Assembly (NCBI GenBank): GCA_019240835.1
Contig: JAFAXQ010000053.1
Span: forward strand, 1 to 34,182
DNA from: Ktedonobacteraceae bacterium
GTDB lineage: Bacteria; Chloroflexota; Ktedonobacteria; Ktedonobacterales; Ktedonobacteraceae
DNA length: 34,182 bases
Direction of reading: 5' to 3'
Part shown: piece by piece, positions 2,185-33,531 of the stretch
How positions within the stretch are numbered: position 1 is the stretch's first letter
Layout of the letters: each line of letters starts with the position of its first letter
Notes under the pieces: generated by a model
Databases searched by the model: none
What the model was told of the DNA's origin: nothing
What the model saw: only the letters and a program-made list of their open reading frames with translations
Translations under genes and position numbers: made by a program

Positions 2185-4479
2185 TTGCCTCCCTTCAACA
2201 TGATCTTTGACAACGGAAACATGGGCGGCACCCATATGGACCCTTATTGGGGCACGCAAATGTGGGGGACGTGGGGACGAGACCCGAGGGGGCAAGACCA
2301 GGATGGGGAACCATTTGAGATTCCCATGCAAGGATTAGGCGTCTTCAGTTGCCTGAAGTCTGCTTGGCCCGGCTTTCATCCTGATTTTCGCGGGTTTGGG
2401 GGAGAAGAGGGCTACATTCATGAAAAGTTCCGACAGGCAGGCCACCGTACGCTGTGTCTGCCCTGGCTCCGCTGGATCCATCGCTTTGGCCGACCTGCTG
2501 GGGTAACCTATCCCTTCACACTGGAAGACCGAATCCGCAATTATGTGATCGGCTTTACTGAACTCGGGCTGGAACTGACCCCAATCCTTCAGCACTTCTC
2601 CCACTACCTGCCCCCACGTCACGTCATTGCTGTGACAGAGCAGGCCCGCTCTGAGATGCAAGAATCACGGAGGGTGCCTGTAGCGGAGAAGACCCTTCTG
2701 CCTGACATGCAGCTCCTGGTCTCCGTCGTGATCGTGGTCTATAACGGCGAACGCTATCTTGAGGCGGCGGTCAAGAGCATCCTGGAACAGACTTTACACC
2801 AGATCGAAGTCATCATTGTCAATGATGGCTCTACGGACACGACCGGACAGATCATCCAGGCGCTCGCCTGCGATCCGAGAGTCAGGCCAGTCCAGCAGAA
2901 TCATCTAGGTATTTCACGTGCCAAACACGCAGGGATAGCATTGGCCCAAGCAAAGTATATAGCCATGCAGGATGCAGATGATCTTTCCTTGCCAACGCGA
3001 CTGGAAAAACAGTATGCCCTCCTGCAACGCTGCCCTGATGTTGGCCTGGTCGCTACTTTGGCAGATCTGATCAACGAAGCAGGGGTCGTACAAGTGCTGA
3101 GCGAAGCAAGACAACAGCGCAGACAAGCACTGGGACGGATGAATGCTCACGAGTTACGGACGCTGTTGTTTCAGATGAATTGTTTCGTGCATGGTTCAGT
3201 GATGATGCAGAAGTCAGCCTGTCTGGCCGTAGGCAATTATCGTGAAGAGCTTTCACTGGCGGAAGACTATGATCTCTGGTTGCGCATGGCTGAACGCTCT
3301 GCATTGGCTCTTCTTCCCGAGATGTTGTATCAGTATCGTGTCCACGCGGACACCCTCTCGAACAAGCATGCTCCTTTGCAGCAGGCGAAGGCGCGTATTG
3401 TCAGAGAACTCGCACACGAACGGCTGCAAGTAGGAATGGATGTACTACAGCAAGGAGGAACGGCAGCCTTTTTGGCCAGATATGGAGCAGAACTCCAGGC
3501 CGCAGAACAGGCCAACGCCATTCGTCCGTCACGTCAGTTGATGGAGGCTCCCTCATCGCGCCCAGTTTTGAAGCCGAGAGGAAACCATGACGAGCTCGAA
3601 GACAGGGCAAGTGTCTCTGCCACGCTTCCGTTTCCTCTCGTCCCCTTCACTTTTTTGGAAAAGAGGACCGTCCAGCCCCAGACATCTTACCTGATCGCTT
3701 CGACCGCACGCACTGGAAGCTACCTGCTGTGTGAAGCCCTGTCACAGACTGGCTTGGCTGGGCGACCAACCGAATATTTTGTGGGAAGCATGATGCTTTC
3801 CTTGCAACGAGAATGGGGGATCTCTTCTTTGAGCGAGTACCTCAACAAAGTGCTGGAACTGGGCACAACTCCCAACGGCGTCTTTGGCATGAAGGCGCAT
3901 TTGAGTCAGTTTCGTCTTCTGCTCAGCGCGCTCCAGAAGATTGCCGTGGACCAGGGACTGACGGGAGAGGATCTGCTGTCAACCGTCTTTCCTCATCTTT
4001 CCTATATCTGGATCACACGCCGGGACAAGGTCCAGCAGGCGATCTCCTTTCTGAAGGCAGCGCAGACCAACCTCTGGTGGCTGACAGACCAACCTCCAGT
4101 TCCTGCGCCCCCGCCGAATGCAAAGATACCTCTGTTTGATTTCGAGGCGATTGACCGAGCAGTGCAGGCGATAGCGTTAGGGGAAAGCGCCTGGCAGGAG
4201 TATTTCAACGGTCATGCGATCACGCCTTTAGTGGTCACCTATGAAGATTTGATACAAACCTATGATGCAACTGCTCGCTCTGTTCTCTCCTATCTGAACA
4301 TCCCCATCCCTGCACATCTGGGGATTCTCGAACCTCGTATGAAGAAGCAGGCAGACGGGATTTCGCAGGAGTGGGCAGAGCGTTATCACAGTCTCAAGCG
4401 AGCACAGAAGGTCCCTCTCTCTATGCACAAGCGTCTTTCAAGCACCATCTCTCATCCCGCGGAAACGCGAGGGATGTGA
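2185..4479 (+). CDS. Three-module protein: truncated glycosyltransferase, GT2 glycosyltransferase, Stf0-type sulfotransferase
   Basis: Three modules are readable. Residues about 1-155 resemble the C-terminal half of a GT-A glycosyltransferase (FRGFGGEEGYIHEKFRQAG, then LCLPWLRWIHRFGRP); the nucleotide-binding half is missing. Residues about 178-400 form a GT2 domain with VSVVIVVYNGERYLEAAV at 179, NDGSTD at 213-218, DADD at 263-266 and EDYDLW near 360. Residues about 500-740 match Stf0 sulfotransferases: the PAPS-binding loop STARTGSYLL at 506-515, RPTEYF at 527-532, NGVFGMK, and TRRDKVQQAISFLKA. Stf0 enzymes move sulfate from PAPS to a sugar such as trehalose. A protein that adds a sugar and then sulfates it is a reasonable inference. 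The start is uncertain: TTG 2185, ATG 2200 and ATG 2221 are all possible and none has a strong ribosome site. It probably shares a transcript with the regulator upstream and MauE downstream. Confidence 0.85.
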   Translation: MPPFNMIFDNGNMGGTHMDPYWGTQMWGTWGRDPRGQDQDGEPFEIPMQGLGVFSCLKSAWPGFHPDFRGFGGEEGYIHEKFRQAGHRTLCLPWLRWIHRFGRPAGVTYPFTLEDRIRNYVIGFTELGLELTPILQHFSHYLPPRHVIAVTEQARSEMQESRRVPVAEKTLLPDMQLLVSVVIVVYNGERYLEAAVKSILEQTLHQIEVIIVNDGSTDTTGQIIQALACDPRVRPVQQNHLGISRAKHAGIALAQAKYIAMQDADDLSLPTRLEKQYALLQRCPDVGLVATLADLINEAGVVQVLSEARQQRRQALGRMNAHELRTLLFQMNCFVHGSVMMQKSACLAVGNYREELSLAEDYDLWLRMAERSALALLPEMLYQYRVHADTLSNKHAPLQQAKARIVRELAHERLQVGMDVLQQGGTAAFLARYGAELQAAEQANAIRPSRQLMEAPSSRPVLKPRGNHDELEDRASVSATLPFPLVPFTFLEKRTVQPQTSYLIASTARTGSYLLCEALSQTGLAGRPTEYFVGSMMLSLQREWGISSLSEYLNKVLELGTTPNGVFGMKAHLSQFRLLLSALQKIAVDQGLTGEDLLSTVFPHLSYIWITRRDKVQQAISFLKAAQTNLWWLTDQPPVPAPPPNAKIPLFDFEAIDRAVQAIALGESAWQEYFNGHAITPLVVTYEDLIQTYDATARSVLSYLNIPIPAHLGILEPRMKKQADGISQEWAERYHSLKRAQKVPLSMHKRLSSTISHPAETRGM

Positions 4480-4515
4480 TCCGGGAACGTTGTCTTCTCT
4501 ATCACAAGGGAGCAT

Positions 4516-6018
4516 ATGATGGATATTATTCTGTTGGTCATTCGTCTGCTGCTTTCGGCAGTCTTCTTGGTAGCCGGAATCGCCAAATTGGGGGATCTCA
4601 CAGGGTCCCGGCAAGCCTTACGCGACTTTGGGGTCCCTGCTCTTGTCGCCCAGCCCGCAGGAGTGCTGTTGCCACTCACTGAACTGGCGGTGGCGGTGGC
4701 GCTGATTCCGACGATTTCTACCTGGTGGGCAGCGGTGGTCTCCCTCGGTCTCTTCTTGCTTTTTGTCGCGGGCATCAGTTATAACCTGGCACGTGGGCGT
4801 ACCCCTGATTGTCATTGTTTTGGGCAGTTGCACTCCACTCCCGCTGGCCCATCCACGCTCATCCGTAATCTGGTGCTGGCCGCTCTGGCTGCTTCACTTG
4901 TCGTTCTTGGGCGCAAGAGCGTAGGGATCGACCTCTTTGGTTGGTTTGGTCAGCTTTCTCTTCGAGATCTGCTTGAACTCATTGGGACTATGATGGGGCT
5001 GGTGGCCCTCTCTGTCACCCTCTGGCTGCTCTTTCACGTTCTGCGCCAGCAGGGGCGGCTACTTTTACGGCTGGAAGCGATGGAGGCTGGGCTCACTGGC
5101 ACCCCTTCTGGCACGAGTCTGCCAACTGCCGGGCTACCTGTTGGCGTTCCTGCTCCCTCGTTTCGTCTGCCTGATATGGCGGGAGCAACAAGGACGTTGG
5201 AGGATCTGCTTGCCCTGGGCAAACCGGTGCTGCTGCTCTTTGCGTCTCCCAATTGCGGACCATGCGAGGCTATTTTCCCTGAAATGAGTCGATTGCAACG
5301 CGACCACGCGAAGGAACTGACAGTGGCTGTCATTAGTCAGGGGAGTAAGCAAGCCAACCAGAAGAAGGTGGCAGTGCATGGAATGGCCCAGGTGCTCTTG
5401 CAGGAGAAATATGAAGTGCAGACGGCCTATCAGGTCACAGGCACGCCTTCTCTCGTCCTCATTCGTCCCGATGGCACCATCGGCTCGCGCCTGGCTCAGG
5501 GGGCTGACGCCATTCGAGGGATCTTAGGAAGCTCTACTGGCTTCCCTGTGCTTGCTGGCTCGTCATCTCGCAATGGGCATGGGCCTCAGGCTGCCAGCCC
5601 GACCGGGCTTGCGCCCGGCGCACAAGCTCCCGATTTCAGTCTACCCGATCTCTCTGGCAAAACAGTTCGTCTCTCTGACTGGCTGGGAAGTCCGACGCTG
5701 CTGCTCTTCTGGCGACCCGGCTGCGGCTATTGTCAGCGGATGCTACCCGCGCTCCAAGCCTGGGAAGCAGACCCACCCTCGCATGCACCTCGCCTGCTGC
5801 TCATCTCTAGTGAGAGCGTACAGGCAAATCAGGCGATGGGACTGCACTCGCCCATTGTCCTCGATCCGTCTGGCATGAGTGTGGGCATGAAGTATGGAGC
5901 CACTGGAACGCCGATGGCGGTCCTCGTGGATGCGGAAGGTAGGGTTGCCTCGGAACTGGCGACAGGAGCAGAAGCAGTCCTCGCGCTGGCTGGGGTACAG
6001 GCCCCCTCGCCTGCATAA
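4516..6018 (+). CDS. MauE/DoxX-like membrane protein fused to two thioredoxin-like domains
   Basis: Residues 1-135 form a four-helix MauE/DoxX-type membrane domain with the family's CHCFG motif (Cys99, Cys101). MauE-like proteins act in disulfide or redox handling of exported proteins. A further membrane segment lies at about 150-175. Two TlpA/AhpC-like thioredoxin domains follow: about 207-340, with active site CGPC at 247-250 and cis-proline TGTPS at 308-312; and about 365-495, with CGYC at 403-406 and TGTPM at 463-467. Both CxxC pairs are intact. In many genomes MauE and its thioredoxin partner are separate genes, so one protein carrying the membrane module and two thioredoxins is unusual. 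The side of the membrane on which the thioredoxins act cannot be fixed by eye. ATG 4516 or 4519 follows AAGGGAG. It lies 36 bases after the sulfotransferase gene and is probably co-transcribed. Confidence 0.85.
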   Translation: MMDIILLVIRLLLSAVFLVAGIAKLGDLTGSRQALRDFGVPALVAQPAGVLLPLTELAVAVALIPTISTWWAAVVSLGLFLLFVAGISYNLARGRTPDCHCFGQLHSTPAGPSTLIRNLVLAALAASLVVLGRKSVGIDLFGWFGQLSLRDLLELIGTMMGLVALSVTLWLLFHVLRQQGRLLLRLEAMEAGLTGTPSGTSLPTAGLPVGVPAPSFRLPDMAGATRTLEDLLALGKPVLLLFASPNCGPCEAIFPEMSRLQRDHAKELTVAVISQGSKQANQKKVAVHGMAQVLLQEKYEVQTAYQVTGTPSLVLIRPDGTIGSRLAQGADAIRGILGSSTGFPVLAGSSSRNGHGPQAASPTGLAPGAQAPDFSLPDLSGKTVRLSDWLGSPTLLLFWRPGCGYCQRMLPALQAWEADPPSHAPRLLLISSESVQANQAMGLHSPIVLDPSGMSVGMKYGATGTPMAVLVDAEGRVASELATGAEAVLALAGVQAPSPA

Positions 6019-26633: not shown

Positions 26634-26987
26634 ATGGCAACAACACTCCCTATTTTTATTATGGTAACCCTGGCTATCCTCTTCGGCATCCTAGTGATGG
26701 TCATTACCGCCATTATTGGACCCAAGAAGCCGACGCCGGAGAAGTTAGCTCCCTATGAGTGTGGCATGCAGGAGATTGCAGCGCCAAAAAGACGCTTTCC
26801 TGTTAAATATCTCTTGACAGGTATGCTCTTTATAGTATTCGACATTGAAATTGTTTCGTTTTATCCACTTGCCATCCTAATGCATCAGTTGAAAGTTTTT
26901 GGACTGATTGAACTACTCGTCTTTCTACTCATTCTGATGGTGGGTTACGTGTATGTCTGGCGCAAGGGAGCATTCACATGGGAGTAG
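26634..26987 (+). CDS. nuoA: NADH-quinone oxidoreductase subunit A
   Basis: A small membrane subunit of complex I with three membrane segments (about 5-27, 62-82 and 88-110). The loop after the first one holds KLAPYECGM (residues 37-45), the conserved Cys loop near the quinone channel in all NuoA/ND3 proteins, and [21 protein letters not shown] with the conserved acidic residues in the second segment. Length is normal. It is the first gene of the nuo series. The ribosome site is weak (AGGAAT, then AAGAA). The last 10 bases overlap nuoB. Confidence 0.95.
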
Positions 26988-27586
26988 TCAAGAACCCCTG
27001 GGAGCCGGTACAGACCGTCTCGAATACACAGACTGCTCGCCCGCGACAAGAATTGGCGATGCATACAAAAGACGGCGATTTTGGGGTTTTGACGACCCAA
27101 GTACACAAATTGCTCGATTGGGGACGTAGTTCCTCGCTATGGCCTGCTCTGTTCGGCCTGGCGTGCTGTGCTATTGAGATGATGGCGACCAGCGCCGACC
27201 GCTTCGATATCGCACGCTTTGGAGCCGAAGTGTACCGTGCCTCGCCGCGCCAGTCCGACTTGCTGATTGTGGCAGGGCGTTGCTCGGTCAAGATGGCACC
27301 CATACTGCGGCAGATTTACGACCAGATGCCTGAGCCTAAGTGGGTGATCTCAATGGGGGCCTGTGCATCATGTGGTGGCGTTTTCAACAACTATGCTATT
27401 GTGCAAGGCGTGGACAAGATCCTGCCAGTAGATGTCTTCATCCCCGGTTGTCCCCCGACGCCCGATATGCTGCTTTACGGCTTCAACGAGCTACAGCGCA
27501 AAATCCGCGCAGGTATTCCCAATCCGCCCGACCCTTTAAAGGATAGCGGACTTCAGTTGATAGGGCCTATCGGTGAGGAACTTTAA
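26978..27586 (+). CDS. nuoB: NADH-quinone oxidoreductase subunit B
   Basis: This is the complex I subunit that holds the terminal iron-sulfur cluster N2, which passes electrons to quinone. All four Cys ligands are present: the tandem pair Cys63-Cys64 in [11 protein letters not shown], Cys129 in [10 protein letters not shown] and Cys158 in [27 protein letters not shown] is the usual motif between them. The N-terminal 30 residues are variable. ATG 26978, with AAGGGAG 8 bases upstream, overlaps the nuoA end, so translation is coupled. Confidence 0.96.
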
Positions 27587-27628
27587 GGGAAGCACAAAGA
27601 AAAAGAATATGTGAGGAATATTGTACGT

Positions 27629-28246
27629 ATGCTTACAACAGCACCATCAACAGTAGAGTTGGTGCGAGAGAAGTTTCCGCACGCAGTAATTGAGACTTCT
27701 GACTTTCGCGACGAGCAGACCATTTTACTCAAGGCCGAGCATTTAGCATCTGTATGCACCTATCTGAAAAAAGATCTGCAATACGACTTCCTTGAGACGA
27801 TTACAGCAGTAGATTGGCTTGAGCGTGTACCGCGCTTCGACGTGGTCTATCAACTGCTTTCTCTGTCCAATCAATGTTTTCTACGCTTGAAGATACAGGT
27901 TGGGCAGCGGCGCGAGGAAAATCCGGCGCTACCGACGGTAACAGGGGTCTGGCCAGGAGCCAATTGGTACGAACGCGAGGTGTACGATCTGTTCGGTCTC
28001 ACCTTTACTGACCATCCTGACCTGCGCCGCATTCTAATGCCAAATGACTGGACGACGCATCCGCTGCGCAAGGACTACCCTCTCTCTGGCTTTGATCTGC
28101 CTGAACCACATTGGGGTGGACAGGTGCCCTATGATAGCGACCCCGGCGTTGGCAGCCAAACACTACGCACCCCGCAGGGCCGCGAATTGAATGAGAGCCG
28201 CACAAAAATCAATCCGAACCAGGAACCTGGCATGCCAAAGGGATAA
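27629..28246 (+). CDS. nuoC: NADH-quinone oxidoreductase subunit C
   Basis: The 30-kDa hydrophilic subunit of the complex I peripheral arm, without cofactors, which supports NuoD. The signature is complete: WYEREVYDLFGLTFTDHPDL, then RRILMPNDW and HPLRKDYPL. The C-terminal 45 residues continue past the core with a Gly/Pro-rich segment common in Chloroflexota. ATG 27629, with GAGGA upstream, is taken as the start; an in-frame GTG at 27611 would add six residues but lacks a ribosome site. It is a separate gene here, not fused with nuoD. It lies 24-42 bases after nuoB and is followed by the only sizeable gap in the operon. Confidence 0.94.
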   Translation: MLTTAPSTVELVREKFPHAVIETSDFRDEQTILLKAEHLASVCTYLKKDLQYDFLETITAVDWLERVPRFDVVYQLLSLSNQCFLRLKIQVGQRREENPALPTVTGVWPGANWYEREVYDLFGLTFTDHPDLRRILMPNDWTTHPLRKDYPLSGFDLPEPHWGGQVPYDSDPGVGSQTLRTPQGRELNESRTKINPNQEPGMPKG

Positions 28247-28250
28247 CATA

Positions 28251-28320
28251 CTTCTTCAGTGCAGAAGATTGCAGCAGGCCCTATAGCTCCTTGTGACCCG
28301 CTTTACTGAAGAGTTACAAT
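28251..28320 (+). promoter_or_regulatory. Structured nuoC-nuoD spacer with a possible internal promoter
   Basis: The 110-base gap between nuoC and nuoD contains perfect 8-bp inverted arms TCTTCAGT (28253-28260) and ACTGAAGA (28305-28312). A competing short hairpin pairs CTTCT (28251-28255) with AGAAG (28263-28267). A promoter-like TTGTGA (28291-28296), an 18-base spacer and TACAAT (28315-28320) overlap the right arm. It may be a processing site or an internal promoter. Confidence 0.35.
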
Positions 28321-28356
28321 TAGAGAAGATAATGTGCATACTAGCCACGAGGATAT

Positions 28357-29595
28357 ATGCAACAACAACAACTAGAAAATTATGACGCCATCGCGGATAA
28401 TCAGCAATTGGAGGATGGGCAACGTGTCGATACGATGACCATCAACATGGGACCTCAGCATCCTAGCACTCATGGCGTGTTGCGCCTGATCCTGACAATT
28501 GAGGGTGAGACCGTTGTCAAAGCAGTTCCCGACATTGGCTTTCTACACACGGGCATTGAGAAGACTGCTGAGGCCAAAACCTACCACCAGGCACTGGTGC
28601 TGACAGATCGCATGGACTATTTGGCCCCCCTGTGCAACAATCTGGGCTACTCGCTCACTGTCGAGAAGCTCTTGGGCATTGAGCACGAGATCACCGACAA
28701 GATCAAGTATGTGCGCGTAGTCTTGGCTGAGCTGCAGCGTATCGCCAGCCATCTGGTATGGTTGGGCACACACGCGCTCGACCTAGGGGCTATGAGCGTC
28801 TTCCTTTACTGCTTCCGTGAGCGCGAGATAATCTTAGACATCTTTGAGTATGTCTCAGGCGTGCGTCTGATGACCAGCTATATCTGTCCCGGTGGGCTAC
28901 AGGCCGATCTGCCTGCTAGTTTTGATGCCAAGGTGCGCGAGTTCACAGGCATCTTCCCACAGCGTCTACAGGAGTATCACGACCTGTTGACCAACAACCA
29001 GCTCTGGCTTGAACGCACCAGGGGAATTGCCCACCTGAGTGCGAAGGATGCTATCGCCTATGGAGCCAGTGGCCCCGTCTTGCGTGGTAGTGGGGTAGTA
29101 TGGGACATACGCAAAGTCTTCCCTTACAGCGGCTATGAGCAGTTTGATTTTGATATTCCCGTTGGCTCAAATGGTGATGCCTATGATCGCTATCTCGTGC
29201 GTATGCTTGAAATGGAGCAAAGTCTGAAGATCATCAACCAAGCTCTTGACGGCATACCCACAGGAGCCTTCCGTGTCAGCAGTCCCAAGATTACACCGCC
29301 ACCCAAGTGGCAGATTACGGGCAGCATGGAAGCGCTTATTCACCACTTTAAGCTCTATACCGAGGGCTATCGCCCACCCGAAGGCGAGGTGTTCACGCGT
29401 ACAGAATCACCTAAAGGTGAGCTTGGCTTCTATATCGTCAGTGATGGCAGCGCCAAACCCTACCGCATGCACGTGCGCGGTGCCTCGTTCGCCAACTTAC
29501 AAGTCCTGCCAGTGATGATTGAGGGACGCTTTCTCTCCGACGTTGTCGTGGCTATTGGTAGCATCGATATTGTGCTAGGTGAGGTTGATCGATGA
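28357..29595 (+). CDS. nuoD: NADH-quinone oxidoreductase subunit D
   Basis: The 49-kDa subunit that, with NuoB, forms the quinone site of complex I. The N-terminal hallmark NMGPQHPSTHGVLRL holds the conserved His-Pro and His residues that line the quinone pocket, followed by GFLHTGIEKTAE and TDRMDYLAPLCNN with the conserved Tyr. SGVVWDIRKVFPYSGYE and the ending DIVLGEVDR are also standard. It is related to the large subunit of [NiFe] hydrogenases but lacks the metal Cys ligands. ATG 28357 has GAGGAT close upstream. Its stop overlaps the nuoE start (ATGA). Confidence 0.96.
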   Translation: MQQQQLENYDAIADNQQLEDGQRVDTMTINMGPQHPSTHGVLRLILTIEGETVVKAVPDIGFLHTGIEKTAEAKTYHQALVLTDRMDYLAPLCNNLGYSLTVEKLLGIEHEITDKIKYVRVVLAELQRIASHLVWLGTHALDLGAMSVFLYCFREREIILDIFEYVSGVRLMTSYICPGGLQADLPASFDAKVREFTGIFPQRLQEYHDLLTNNQLWLERTRGIAHLSAKDAIAYGASGPVLRGSGVVWDIRKVFPYSGYEQFDFDIPVGSNGDAYDRYLVRMLEMEQSLKIINQALDGIPTGAFRVSSPKITPPPKWQITGSMEALIHHFKLYTEGYRPPEGEVFTRTESPKGELGFYIVSDGSAKPYRMHVRGASFANLQVLPVMIEGRFLSDVVVAIGSIDIVLGEVDR

Positions 29596-30068
29596 TTTCA
29601 GAAGAGACGAAGCAGCGCATGCAAAGTCTGGCTGCACGCTATCCCGTGGCGCGCTCGGCTGTTATGCCAGCGCTGTATCTAGCCCAGCAAGAAGAGGGCT
29701 ATATCACACAACAAGGACTGTGTACCATCGCCGAGGCCATAGGCATGAGCGTTGACGACGTAGAGAGTATTGCCACCTTCTATACAATGTACCACCAGCA
29801 CCAGCCAGGCAAGAGGATCATTAAAGTATGCACGAGCATCTCTTGCTACTTGCGCAACTGTGACGCATTGGTCGAGCACCTGGAAAAGCGTCTCGGTATC
29901 AAGCGTGGCGAGACAACTGCCGATGGCAGCTACACGCTGATGACCGCCGAATGCCTCGCCTCCTGTGGCACTGCACCCGTGCTGCAAGTCAATAACGAGT
30001 TTGTCGAAAACGTCACACTGCAGATGGCCGACACACTTATTGACGAGCTAGATGGAGAATTGCATTGA
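29592..30068 (+). CDS. nuoE: NADH-quinone oxidoreductase subunit E
   Basis: The 24-kDa thioredoxin-fold subunit of the NADH-dehydrogenase module, binding the [2Fe-2S] cluster N1a. The four ligands are Cys80 and Cys85 (VCTSISCYL) and Cys121 and Cys125 (ECLASCGTAP). The N-terminal helical bundle (residues 1-70) includes VESIATFYTMY. Length is normal for the family. It starts in the ATGA overlap with nuoD, with GGTGAGG upstream, and its stop overlaps the nuoF start, so nuoD-E-F are translationally coupled. Confidence 0.95.
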   Translation: MISEETKQRMQSLAARYPVARSAVMPALYLAQQEEGYITQQGLCTIAEAIGMSVDDVESIATFYTMYHQHQPGKRIIKVCTSISCYLRNCDALVEHLEKRLGIKRGETTADGSYTLMTAECLASCGTAPVLQVNNEFVENVTLQMADTLIDELDGELH

Positions 30069-31342
30069 TTATCACCAAAAACCTGGATGTCCCCGACCTG
30101 GACAACATAGATGTGTATCGTCAACACGGCGGCTATGAAGCACTGGCCAAGGCTCTTAAAGACTACCAGCCCGATCAAATCGCTGAAATGGTCAAGCAAT
30201 CGGGCCTACGTGGACGAGGTGGCGCAGGCTTCCCTACAGGTATGAAGTGGGGCTTCCTAGCCAAGAACGGCAAGACACGCTATCTCTGCTGTAACGCTGA
30301 TGAGAGCGAACCCGGCACGTTCAAAGACCGCATGCTGATGGAGAAGAATCCTCATCTGCTCGTTGAAGGAGTGATCCTGACCAGTTATGCCTGCGGCGTT
30401 TCAACTGCCTTTATTTACGTGCGCGGCGAGTTAGCATATGCAACTCGCCAGGTAGAGCGAGCGGTAAATGAAGCGTACGCAGCCGGACTGATCGGCAACA
30501 ATATTCTAGGCAGTGATTTTAGCCTGGATGTGATCGTTCATCGTGGCGCGGGCGCTTATATCTGCGGTGAGGAAAGCGCTTTGATGGAATCGCTCGAAGG
30601 TCGACGCGGTTACCCACGCTTGAAGCCTCCTTTCCCCGCCGCAATTGGCCTCTATGGAGGGCCTACTGTTATTAATAACTGTGAGACGCTGTGTACGGTG
30701 CCCTCCATCGTACAGAATGGTGCTGAGTGGTACGCCAGTTTCGGCACTGAGAAGAGCAAAGGGACGCGTATCTTCTGCTTGAGCGGACACGTTAAGAAGC
30801 CTGGTAACTACGAGTTGCCATTGGGTACGCCACTGCGCACATTGATCTACGACGAACAGTACGGCGGCGGTATCCTCGGCGACAAGGAGCTGAAAGCAAT
30901 TATCCCTGGCGGCTCATCCACTTTTCTGCTAGGCCCCGACAAATTAGACACGCCGCTCGACTTCGAGTCTATTGCAGCCGCAGGCTCCATGCTCGGCTCT
31001 GGTGGCGTGGTGGTCATCGACCAGGACACCTGTATCGTCGCTGCTATCCTACGCATGACGGAATTTTATCGTGACGAGTCCTGTGGCAAATGCACTCCTT
31101 GCCGCGAAGGCACATACTGGCTGACGGAGATACTGGAACGCCTCGAACACGGACACGGCACAGAGGGCGACATAGCGCTGCTACTCGACATTTGTGACAA
31201 CATCAGCGGCAAATCGTTCTGCCCGCTAGGTGACGCCGCTACCAGTTCCATCACCAGTGGCATCAAGCTTTTCCGCTCCGAGTTTGAATACCATGTCAAG
31301 CACGGTCATTGCATGGTTGGAACGTGCCTGGTAGGGGCATGA
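30065..31342 (+). CDS. nuoF: NADH-quinone oxidoreductase subunit F
   Basis: The 51-kDa subunit that oxidises NADH. The FMN/NADH-binding loop LRGRGGAGFPTGMKWGF begins at residue 48, NADESEPGTFKDR follows, and GAGAYICGEESALMESLEG is in place. The [4Fe-4S] N3 ligands are Cys340, Cys343 and Cys346 (SCGKCTPCREG) and Cys386 (SFCPLGD). The start is a TTG at 30065 overlapping the nuoE stop, supported by GGAG about 7 bases upstream; use of TTG probably tunes its level to nuoE. The stop overlaps nuoG in ATGA. Confidence 0.95.
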   Translation: MIITKNLDVPDLDNIDVYRQHGGYEALAKALKDYQPDQIAEMVKQSGLRGRGGAGFPTGMKWGFLAKNGKTRYLCCNADESEPGTFKDRMLMEKNPHLLVEGVILTSYACGVSTAFIYVRGELAYATRQVERAVNEAYAAGLIGNNILGSDFSLDVIVHRGAGAYICGEESALMESLEGRRGYPRLKPPFPAAIGLYGGPTVINNCETLCTVPSIVQNGAEWYASFGTEKSKGTRIFCLSGHVKKPGNYELPLGTPLRTLIYDEQYGGGILGDKELKAIIPGGSSTFLLGPDKLDTPLDFESIAAAGSMLGSGGVVVIDQDTCIVAAILRMTEFYRDESCGKCTPCREGTYWLTEILERLEHGHGTEGDIALLLDICDNISGKSFCPLGDAATSSITSGIKLFRSEFEYHVKHGHCMVGTCLVGA

Positions 31343-33531
31343 CTTTGATAGATGGTAAAAAACATATGCCAGAAGAAGAGAAAAAACCAGAACTCATTCA
31401 CCTGACCATTGACGACATACCCGTCGAGGTTCCCGCCGGAACCGTGGTATGGGCGGCAGCACAACAGGCCGGAATAGAAATTCCTATTTACTGCTATCAC
31501 CCCAAGATGCCACCCTTGGGGGCGTGCCGCATGTGCTTCGTCGAGATTGAAAAGATGCCCAAACCACCGCAGACGGCCTGTACGACTCCGGTGAGCGAGG
31601 GCATGGTTGTGCATACAAACACGGAGAGAGTACTCAAGGCTCGTCGAGGCACTCTGGAGTTCTTGCTTATCAATCATCCGCTCGACTGTCCTATTTGCGA
31701 TAAAGGCGGCGAGTGTGATCTGCAAGATTTCACCTTGCGCCACGGGCCAGGTGGCACACGTTTCAACCTGTACAAGCGTCACTACAGCAAGCCCATTGCT
31801 GTCAGCAACGACGTACTGCTTGACCGCGAGCGCTGCATTCTCTGCCAACGCTGCACGCGTTTTTGCTCCGAAATCTCTATGGATAATGGCCTCGTGATGA
31901 TCTCACGAGGCCACAAGATGGAGGTCGGCACAGCTCCCGAGCACGCTTTCGATTCCATCTTCTCCGGCAACACCGTTGAGATATGTCCTGTGGGTGCCTT
32001 GACTGCGGCAAGTTATCGCTTCAAGTCGCGGCCTTGGGAGCTTAAGCGTACGCCCAGCGTCTGCAACAACTGTAGTGTTGGCTGTAACGTGCGCATAGAC
32101 GTACGCGTTGACAAGGTGATGCGCTTGATGTCGCGCACAAACGACGAAATCGACGACGGCTGGCTGTGTAACCGTGGGCGCTGGGGCTTCGAGTTCGTCA
32201 ACAGCCCACAGCGTCTGCGTACACCTCTCTTTCGCCACGAGGGCAGCCTTGTGCCGACCAACTGGGACGCGGCTTTCGACTACATCGCCACACGCCTCAA
32301 AAAGACCATTGCCAAACACGGAGCACAAGCGGTGGCTGGTATCGGCTCGACGCGTACCACCAATGAAGAAGCCTATCTCTTCCAGAAATTCCTGCGCAAG
32401 GTCGTCGGCACGCCTAACATCGATCATTATCACGGGCTGTTCCCTGCTCCACGTGATCGCTTGACGGGCAAGCCGTGGATGATGACCAATAGCATCGCAG
32501 AGATCGAGAAAGCCTCGCACCTCGTGTTGATCGCCGCCGATCCCTACCAGCGTCAGCCCGTTCTCAACCTGCGTATCAAGAAGGCCATCAAGGGGGGCGC
32601 AAAACTTTCTATCGTTAACGCGCATGAAACAGAGCTTGATCGTTTCGCTACACGCAAGATTACCATTCCACAACATGCTGCGGGTATTGCTGCCAAGCTT
32701 TTACTCAAGCAGGCATTGAGCAACCAAAACATCAAGACCGACGGCTACGAAGATGTGCGCACAAAGCTAGAGCGCGAGGATCAGAGCCTGCAGGCCGCTA
32801 CGCAGACGTTGGGGCCTGAGGCCATATCACAGCTTCAACATCTTGCCGATGAGATCATAGAGGCTAGGGGCGCGATCATGCTCTACGATGAGATGGCGAC
32901 ACGGACACCTGACTGCGAAGACTTGGCGGCAGACTTGCAAACTCTGGCTGTGCTCACCAATACTATTGGTCGCCCCGGTGCTGGTGTGGGACCACTCTTT
33001 GAAGACGCCAACTCGCTTGGAGCACGCGATATGGGTCTTCTACCCGACGCACTCCCCGGCTATCAGTTGCCCGCACAGGTTGGCATGTCATACGAAGAGA
33101 TAATGAGCAGCCCACAGATCAAAGCACTGTATGTCATGGGTGCTAATCCCGTCCGTCACCTAGCTAAACCGGAGCTGCCCTCGTCGCTAGAGTTCACCAT
33201 CGTACAGGACATTGTGCTCTCCGAGACGGCACAGCAGGCTGATGTTGTGCTGCCTGCCGTGACCTTTGCAGAAAAAGATGGCACTATGACCAACGTCGAT
33301 CACCACGTGCAGGCCATTCGCCGTACGTTGCGTCCGTTGCCCGGTGCCAAGGCCGATTGGGAGATTTTGACCGAACTGGCGCAGACTATGGGTCAGGCGT
33401 GGGACTACGATAGTCCATGTGACATCTTCCTAGAAATCGCCGACAAGAATCCCTTCTATGCTAGCCTCACCTGGCAAGACCTGGGTCTGCATGGCATACG
33501 TACGCAAGAACAGGAGCTAGCCCATGCTTGA
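31339..33531 (+). CDS. nuoG: NADH-quinone oxidoreductase subunit G
   Basis: The 75-kDa subunit with several iron-sulfur clusters. Residues about 20-95 form a ferredoxin domain with [2Fe-2S] ligands Cys52, Cys63, Cys66 and Cys81. Next come the His/Cys site (His113, Cys117, Cys120, Cys126) and a [4Fe-4S] site (Cys166, Cys169, Cys172, Cys216). A molybdopterin-type domain then carries CNNCSVGC plus WLCNRG (Cys242, Cys245, Cys249, Cys277), the ligands of the extra N7 cluster found in some bacteria and absent from mitochondria. The rest is the non-catalytic formate-dehydrogenase-like fold. ATG 31339, in ATGA overlap with nuoF, is chosen; starts at 31309 or 31366 are possible. It overlaps nuoH by 8 bases. 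Confidence 0.94.
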   Translation: MTLIDGKKHMPEEEKKPELIHLTIDDIPVEVPAGTVVWAAAQQAGIEIPIYCYHPKMPPLGACRMCFVEIEKMPKPPQTACTTPVSEGMVVHTNTERVLKARRGTLEFLLINHPLDCPICDKGGECDLQDFTLRHGPGGTRFNLYKRHYSKPIAVSNDVLLDRERCILCQRCTRFCSEISMDNGLVMISRGHKMEVGTAPEHAFDSIFSGNTVEICPVGALTAASYRFKSRPWELKRTPSVCNNCSVGCNVRIDVRVDKVMRLMSRTNDEIDDGWLCNRGRWGFEFVNSPQRLRTPLFRHEGSLVPTNWDAAFDYIATRLKKTIAKHGAQAVAGIGSTRTTNEEAYLFQKFLRKVVGTPNIDHYHGLFPAPRDRLTGKPWMMTNSIAEIEKASHLVLIAADPYQRQPVLNLRIKKAIKGGAKLSIVNAHETELDRFATRKITIPQHAAGIAAKLLLKQALSNQNIKTDGYEDVRTKLEREDQSLQAATQTLGPEAISQLQHLADEIIEARGAIMLYDEMATRTPDCEDLAADLQTLAVLTNTIGRPGAGVGPLFEDANSLGARDMGLLPDALPGYQLPAQVGMSYEEIMSSPQIKALYVMGANPVRHLAKPELPSSLEFTIVQDIVLSETAQQADVVLPAVTFAEKDGTMTNVDHHVQAIRRTLRPLPGAKADWEILTELAQTMGQAWDYDSPCDIFLEIADKNPFYASLTWQDLGLHGIRTQEQELAHA

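Follow-up and report, generated by a model that had tools for sequence, protein, structure and literature searches.

A one-frame fusion of a MauE-type membrane domain with two thioredoxin domains in a Ktedonobacteraceae bacterium, and its relatives beside genes for cysteine-rich proteins with RR leaders

The window, a stretch of 34,182 nt from a Ktedonobacteraceae bacterium (GenBank assembly GCA_019240835.1, contig JAFAXQ010000053.1), includes a single frame with an ATG start (ORF listing) that specifies a MauE-type membrane domain followed by two thioredoxin (Trx) domains (Table 1). On one side the gene is flanked by a frame (2185–4479, TTG start) for a GT2 glycosyltransferase fused to an Stf0 sulfotransferase, and on the other by that for a molybdopterin oxidoreductase; further downstream, a run of ORFs (26978–33531) resembles, by eye, subunits of NADH dehydrogenase (complex I). 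A sulfur or redox task had been proposed on account of the sulfotransferase and the molybdenum enzyme next door, and we rejected it: in the closest relative, a genome of the same genus (G029), the flanking genes encode a GT2 glycosyltransferase and UreF, so that no more than the GT2 part is shared, and elsewhere in the family the neighbour that recurs is a cysteine-rich protein with an RR leader. The source genome (4.3 Mb in 313 contigs) is rated 99.5% complete with 6% contamination; its family includes Ktedonobacter racemifer and Dictyobacter vulcani (G027).

Table 1. Features of the MauE-Trx-Trx gene and its product, with positions in the window.
Feature	Position	Strand	Details and basis
MauE-Trx-Trx gene	4516..6018	+	500 aa; ORF, Pfam, homologues
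AAGGGAG, probable ribosome-binding site	4506..4512	+	sequence just 5′ of the ATG
MauE domain (residues 2-129) with its four membrane helices	4519..4902	+	PF07291, 101.4 bits; AlphaFold
CHCFG motif (Cys99, Cys101), helix 3-4 loop	4810..4824	+	C99, C101, F102 and G103 invariant
Membrane helix 5 plus stalk (residues 149-193), with Lys/Arg C-terminal to the helix	4960..5094	+	AlphaFold helix, charge counts
First thioredoxin domain (MauD-like), residues ~208-330, cis-Pro311	5137..5505	+	Pfam, NCBIfam, conservation
CGPC site, first thioredoxin domain	5254-5265	+	within 5137..5505
Inter-thioredoxin linker	5506..5607	+	residues 344-361 with pLDDT below 50
Second thioredoxin domain (TlpA/ResA-like), residues ~365-480, cis-Pro466	5608..5955	+	PF00578, Foldseek, conservation
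CGYC site, second thioredoxin domain	5722-5733	+	within 5608..5955

As judged from the sequence, this architecture is real and looks functional. In a Pfam search of the window protein, the MauE match far exceeded its cut-off of 27 bits, AhpC-TSA (PF00578) scored 105.8 bits (cut-off 26) over two stretches, the best being residues 367–478, and Thioredoxin_2 covered residues 235–323 with 62 bits (cut-off 27); DoxX (PF07681) was also above its cut-off. The best NCBIfam match of the first thioredoxin domain is TIGR02661 (MauD), which at 90 bits is below its cut-off of 188.6, as is ResA (NF002854; 77.8 bits) with respect to its curated cut-off of 170. The protein has exactly six cysteines (99, 101, 247, 250, 403 and 406), two in each of the CHC, CGPC and CGYC sites.

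The AlphaFold model of the full-length protein (mean pLDDT 87.9) consists of four membrane helices, a long helix (149–193) and two thioredoxin folds, the relative placement of the domains being uncertain because the pTM is 0.50; the MauE domain modelled by itself has a pLDDT of 93.9. Using Foldseek, the best matches of the full model were ResA structures, and the MauE domain alone gave no significant match. The best structural match of the MauE domain was NACHO (9h9e_B; 116 aligned, rmsd 2.2) with a Z of 13.4, which is at the edge of the chance level for helical bundles; the next Z was 9.0. NACHO (TMEM35A) is a DoxX-like receptor-assembly factor. The layout is also like that of VKOR-thioredoxin fusions, in which a four-helix membrane domain with a thiol motif is followed by a fifth helix and a thioredoxin on the same face. 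However, VKOR (PF07884) is absent among the 13 families that the window protein matched at E 0.1, its charge bias is the opposite one, and the Z of the MauE domain with VKOR chains (~6) is at background level for helical bundles. A VKOR fold for MauE is not supported; the absence of other families from the list of structural matches is no argument against those families.

A scan of GTDB genomes yielded 73 loci encoding relatives. In 47 of these, the MauE domain, the first thioredoxin domain and one, two or three TlpA-like domains (29, 17 and 1 proteins, respectively) are encoded in one frame. In the class Ktedonobacteria, 5 of 47 genomes, the source genome included, have full-length copies (seven in all, three of them in genome G020), and in another (G024) a relative was found for just the MauE part; at E 0.001, every one of the 47 genomes gives a match of some kind, for the most part to single thioredoxins. 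The homologue in G029 is 60% identical over residues 2–493, and this copy, together with the full-length copies in the class and across GTDB, implies that the gene is not an assembly accident.

In an alignment of 26 single-TlpA proteins (window protein included), the six cysteines, P311 and P466 are invariant, as is T465, which accompanies C403, C406 and P466 in the second thioredoxin domain. The fusion of MauE to two intact thioredoxin domains, as read by the earlier note, is therefore sound, and the pattern that would have spoken against it, homologues in which one domain is usually inactive, was not seen: both CxxC sites and both cis-prolines persist in all 26 rows. The MauE motif (C99, C101, F102, G103) is invariant there and in a set of 35 MauE rows. 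The two thioredoxin sites, moreover, differ from one another, as the same note had it, and are each conserved by position. The first domain has CxxC in 47 of 47 proteins and CxPC in 43 (one domain was matched as two pieces); a CxxC is likewise present in each of the 66 TlpA-like domains, as CGFC (60), CGYC (5) or CAFC (1). First sites lacking the proline (L069, L074, L088, L099, L100) read CLAC, CSAC or CSLC, and CGAC/CSAC in Streptomyces. In the repeat-bearing proteins, the TlpA-like domains are mutually 44–80% identical and look like repeat duplications, whereas the first domain is 26–42% identical to them; a single recent duplication yielding both kinds of domain is not favoured by these values.

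The recurrent neighbour has an N-terminus of the form FDxLT+xLAxxxSRR, followed by a hydrophobic stretch and a body very rich in cysteine. We surveyed 73 neighbourhoods, which comprise the window, three loci from related genomes (L035 and L036, which stem from one contig, and L040) and 69 of the 73 loci from the GTDB scan; L102, L103, L105 and L108 were left out, no qualifying enzyme frame having been found in them. The ORFs were delimited by simple open-frame rules rather than by gene calling and were scored as cysteine-rich RR-leader ORFs when they combined an RR motif and a hydrophobic stretch with at least 12 Cys and at least 4.5% Cys. By this rule, 27 of 32 such ORFs occur no more than 1 kb from the enzyme gene, in 24 of the 73 loci, although the 1-kb zone makes up 17% of the flanking sequence searched (binomial P 2.6e-16). 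One of the 27 near hits looks spurious (L082, 8710–9963) and another has an off-centre leader (L092), and three of the five far hits look spurious (L082, L087, L093); the rule misses a 44-Cys protein whose leader is cut off by the contig start (L073) and proteins with 7–10 Cys (L040, L094, L101). An earlier count, made on a greedy set of 745 ORFs, had placed 18 of its 20 leader-motif ORFs at a distance of 900 bp or less. The other 49 loci, including the window, have no cysteine-rich RR-leader neighbour within 1 kb; 34 of them extend for at least 1 kb on both sides and 15 for less than 1 kb on a side. Linked pairs occur in Chloroflexota, Acidobacteriota, Actinomycetota and other phyla, and at the level of the family, the link between the enzyme and RR-leader cysteine-rich proteins is strong.

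The rule-passing neighbours have from at least 12 up to 84 cysteines (58, 66, 68, 76 and 84, for example). Each of the three enzyme copies in G020 is adjoined by a cysteine-rich RR-leader gene, and the gene order in Ktedonobacter racemifer (G032) is cysteine-rich RR-leader genes, enzyme, TatC (PF00902, 207.6 bits). When ten of the cysteine-rich proteins were compared with Pfam, seven had no match, one had disintegrin repeats, and two had matches below cut-off, one spider-toxin-like and the other to a Tat signal. Against NCBIfam, one leader (L036) scored above the cut-off for a Tat signal. The RR leaders are thus putative Tat signals, a label that rests mainly on the motif. An RR-leader protein of 846 aa in genome G062 (L198, 4564–7101) has 150 cysteines and twelve STIG1-like stretches (PF04885, 237 bits), and its gene adjoins that of a Trx-pair protein without MauE. 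In genome G070 (L205, 7133–7831), a protein of 233 aa encoded beside a MauE-Trx-Trx gene combines a PqqD-like domain, an internal RR leader and a cysteine-rich tail, and a link to peptide modification is possible.

Because relatives adjoin genes for exported proteins packed with cysteines, the enzyme probably ties the disulfides of such proteins. With moderate confidence, we propose a membrane thiol-disulfide enzyme in a single chain, which would form and proof-read disulfides in cysteine-rich proteins with Tat leaders, presumably by oxidation and not by reduction. Client thiols would give electrons to the outermost domain (TlpA-like, CGYC), or be shuffled by it, and the MauD-like domain (CGPC) would relay the electrons to the CxC of MauE on the same membrane face; the latter would be re-oxidised through the membrane domain, perhaps by quinone. 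Both the order of the relay and the electron acceptor are conjectural here. The earlier suggestion of either a two-step relay or two client specificities stands in part. Different sites, each conserved by position, favour distinct roles, so that a relay or two specificities are possible, but the direction from the membrane to the first and then to the second thioredoxin is only one of those conceivable, and electron flow from client to thioredoxin to membrane is likelier for disulfide formation.

The CxC, the far end of helix 5 and both thioredoxin domains should be on one face of the membrane. No membrane-like stretch follows residue 205 (the highest 19-residue hydropathy is 1.16, as compared to 2.12 for helix 5), and the two thioredoxin domains should therefore lie on one side; an arrangement on opposite sides, which would have counted against the earlier reading, was not seen. 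In the usual view, bacteria form disulfides outside the cytosol. It is possible, if short of an even chance, that the same maturase has both thioredoxin domains outside the membrane and acts on cysteine-rich proteins after their export: the closest solved relatives of the window protein, of the ResA/TlpA type, are extracytoplasmic, the cytosol is normally reducing, and the fused VKOR-Trx or the MauD/MauE pair is usually drawn so. The charges, however, point the other way. In all 26 aligned rows, Lys + Arg favour a cytosolic Trx face (means 11.2 versus 1.5, in segments drawn by hand), and the bias persists after removal of the five conserved basic positions. The VKOR of the source genome obeys the normal charge rule (8 inside, 3 outside, again in segments drawn by hand). 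Among 28 thioredoxin frames without MauE, 25 have a clear hydrophobic anchor, with on average 3.92 Lys + Arg before and 0.88 after the helix, which is the usual pattern of outside-facing proteins, the stretch before the helix possibly extending past the true start codon. Two of the MauE-less frames are clear exceptions (L003 and L014, the latter adjoining a MauE gene) and two are ambiguous (L031 and one of L033); at L198, a MauE-less relative carries basic residues before as well as after its helix. The basic residues may nevertheless be functional rather than topological.

Single-ORF fusions in Streptomyces also bear on the membrane side. Four loci of the genus (L099, L100, L175, L176) and a Streptomyces plasmid (L208) specify MauE-Trx, an RR leader and a cysteine-rich domain in one ORF, with one thioredoxin domain; the fusion was found in 3 of 343 sampled genomes of the genus, the query's own included. 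The Tat-like leader, STIARRA(L/V)LFASA, lies in frame after MauE-Trx, and 14 (L099, L100) or 15 (L175, L176) cysteines follow the RR. A GTG precedes the RR motif by 12 codons in L099 and L100, and L099 has an ATG at 35 as well, while L176 offers just two starts, 35 and 26 codons upstream, and none occurs within 45 codons in L175. On these grounds we rejected an internal start from which the cysteine-rich part would be made separately; the fusion is probably real, joining the enzyme and its likely client in one chain. Its RR leader is C-terminal to the Trx domain, which fits a cytosolic thioredoxin and speaks against one outside the membrane. In genome G133 (L194, contig C115), an RR leader stands at the head of a TlpA-TlpA frame and is attached, mid-fold, to a TrxD domain's tail; on account of this junction, the tandem is probably a deletion or an assembly chimera, though also a possible counter-example to the cytosolic reading.

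From the charge bias and the Streptomyces fusion, we put the odds that both thioredoxin domains face the cytosol at about even; in that case, disulfides would be made on the cytosolic face and Tat export would follow. The broader proposal of a natural, membrane-bound system for oxidative folding on the cytosolic face, consisting of MauE and one to four Trx domains, acting before folded export via Tat in several phyla and fused to a client in Streptomyces, is a tentative one. A comparable order of events has been engineered in Escherichia coli, where CyDisCo forms disulfides in the cytoplasm before Tat export (PMC6708511, PMC9995818). CyDisCo combines an oxidase of yeast with a human isomerase, whereas the present system would be a natural one, bound to the membrane. 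The review of Tat in PMC6708511 has PhoA and antibody fragments exported only where disulfides could form first, and growth hormone and others exported without prior disulfides. If true, a cytosolic-face system would span several phyla, fused to its own client in Streptomyces. The family, whose named hosts are Ktedonobacter racemifer, Dictyobacter vulcani and Streptomyces, gives a concrete candidate for the handling of very cysteine-rich Tat proteins, and the side of the membrane on which it works can be tested.

One of the closest known systems is the MauE/MauD pair of methylamine dehydrogenase maturation, on which van der Palen et al. reportedly published a study in 1997. The window protein shares the MauE domain and a MauD-like thioredoxin with it but scores below the MauD cut-off, and in the family the two parts are fused, with one to three TlpA-like domains added. 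The small subunit of methylamine dehydrogenase (PF02975) had no match in the source genome, and none in the control genomes either. The beta-subunit of that enzyme has many disulfides and a putative RR leader. In PMC7794033, MauE is speculated to form disulfides in this subunit. Part of our linkage is already in print there: three candidate RiPP families of Streptomyces have mauE homologues, one of them mauD too, and each comes with a precursor gene with at least eight cysteines, the same pairing of mauE with a gene for a cysteine-rich protein. The terms "twin-arginine" and "Tat signal" have no occurrences in the text of PMC7794033, and tandem thioredoxins and fusions are absent from its mauE passages. 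Among the matches listed in the openly licensed literature, no paper joins MauE, Tat leaders and cysteine-rich proteins. The family also points to a role for MauD/MauE that is more general than the use of methylamine.

Across 400 Chloroflexota genomes, 14 matched a profile of the enzyme (E 1e-30) and 13 a profile of the leader (E 1e-6), these counts being lower bounds, and 12 matched both (Fisher 4e-20); without the genomes recognised as contributors to the profiles, 6 were shared of 7 and 7 (P 1e-11). Six of the 14 showed, in the sequence examined, Trx relatives but no MauE (two of these six being cut by contig ends and one probably a chimera), and one had only the MauE part. The single leader-positive, enzyme-negative genome (G295) owes its match to a periplasmic binding protein with two cysteines. 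The converse pair consists of G189, where a 22-Cys RR-leader protein below the leader-profile cut-off is encoded beside the Trx gene, and the source genome (G000). No cysteine-rich RR-leader client was found in the window, and a search of the source genome gave none either (best E 0.335 with the leader profile and 0.205 with the cysteine-rich protein of G029 as the query), so that the link to cysteine-rich proteins is extended to the window copy by inference. The source genome encodes TatC and VKOR. That its gene has lost the cysteine-rich partner and now acts on an unrelated client, or on the thiol balance of the envelope in general, is an explanation that the missing client and the presence of VKOR would suit, but we deem it rather unlikely: all of the catalytic residues are intact, and the same-genus genome G029 has a cysteine-rich RR-leader protein even though it is not adjacent, gene and enzyme being on different contigs there as they are in G027.

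Reducing thioredoxins have the CGPC motif, and proteins of the ResA/CcmG type work as reductants; with the PqqD-domain cysteine-rich protein beside one copy, this could suggest a reductase or holdase, which would hold the cysteines of a client in the reduced state or undo wrong disulfides in preparation for export, metal loading or another modification. We regard this as improbable, given that proteins with up to 84 cysteines (150 beside a MauE-less relative), some with STIG1- or disintegrin-like repeats, look stabilised by disulfides and that Tat, according to passages in PMC6708511, prefers folded cargo.

In genome G269, one protein combines MauE with four thioredoxin domains, and the leader profile has 82 matches (E up to 1), the most among the 12 genomes searched. 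In L035 (G020, contig C39), two enzyme/cysteine-rich pairs are interleaved with four secreted-looking proteins that contain HIVIMVKEN or a close variant and are, by eye, phospholipase- or phosphatase-like.
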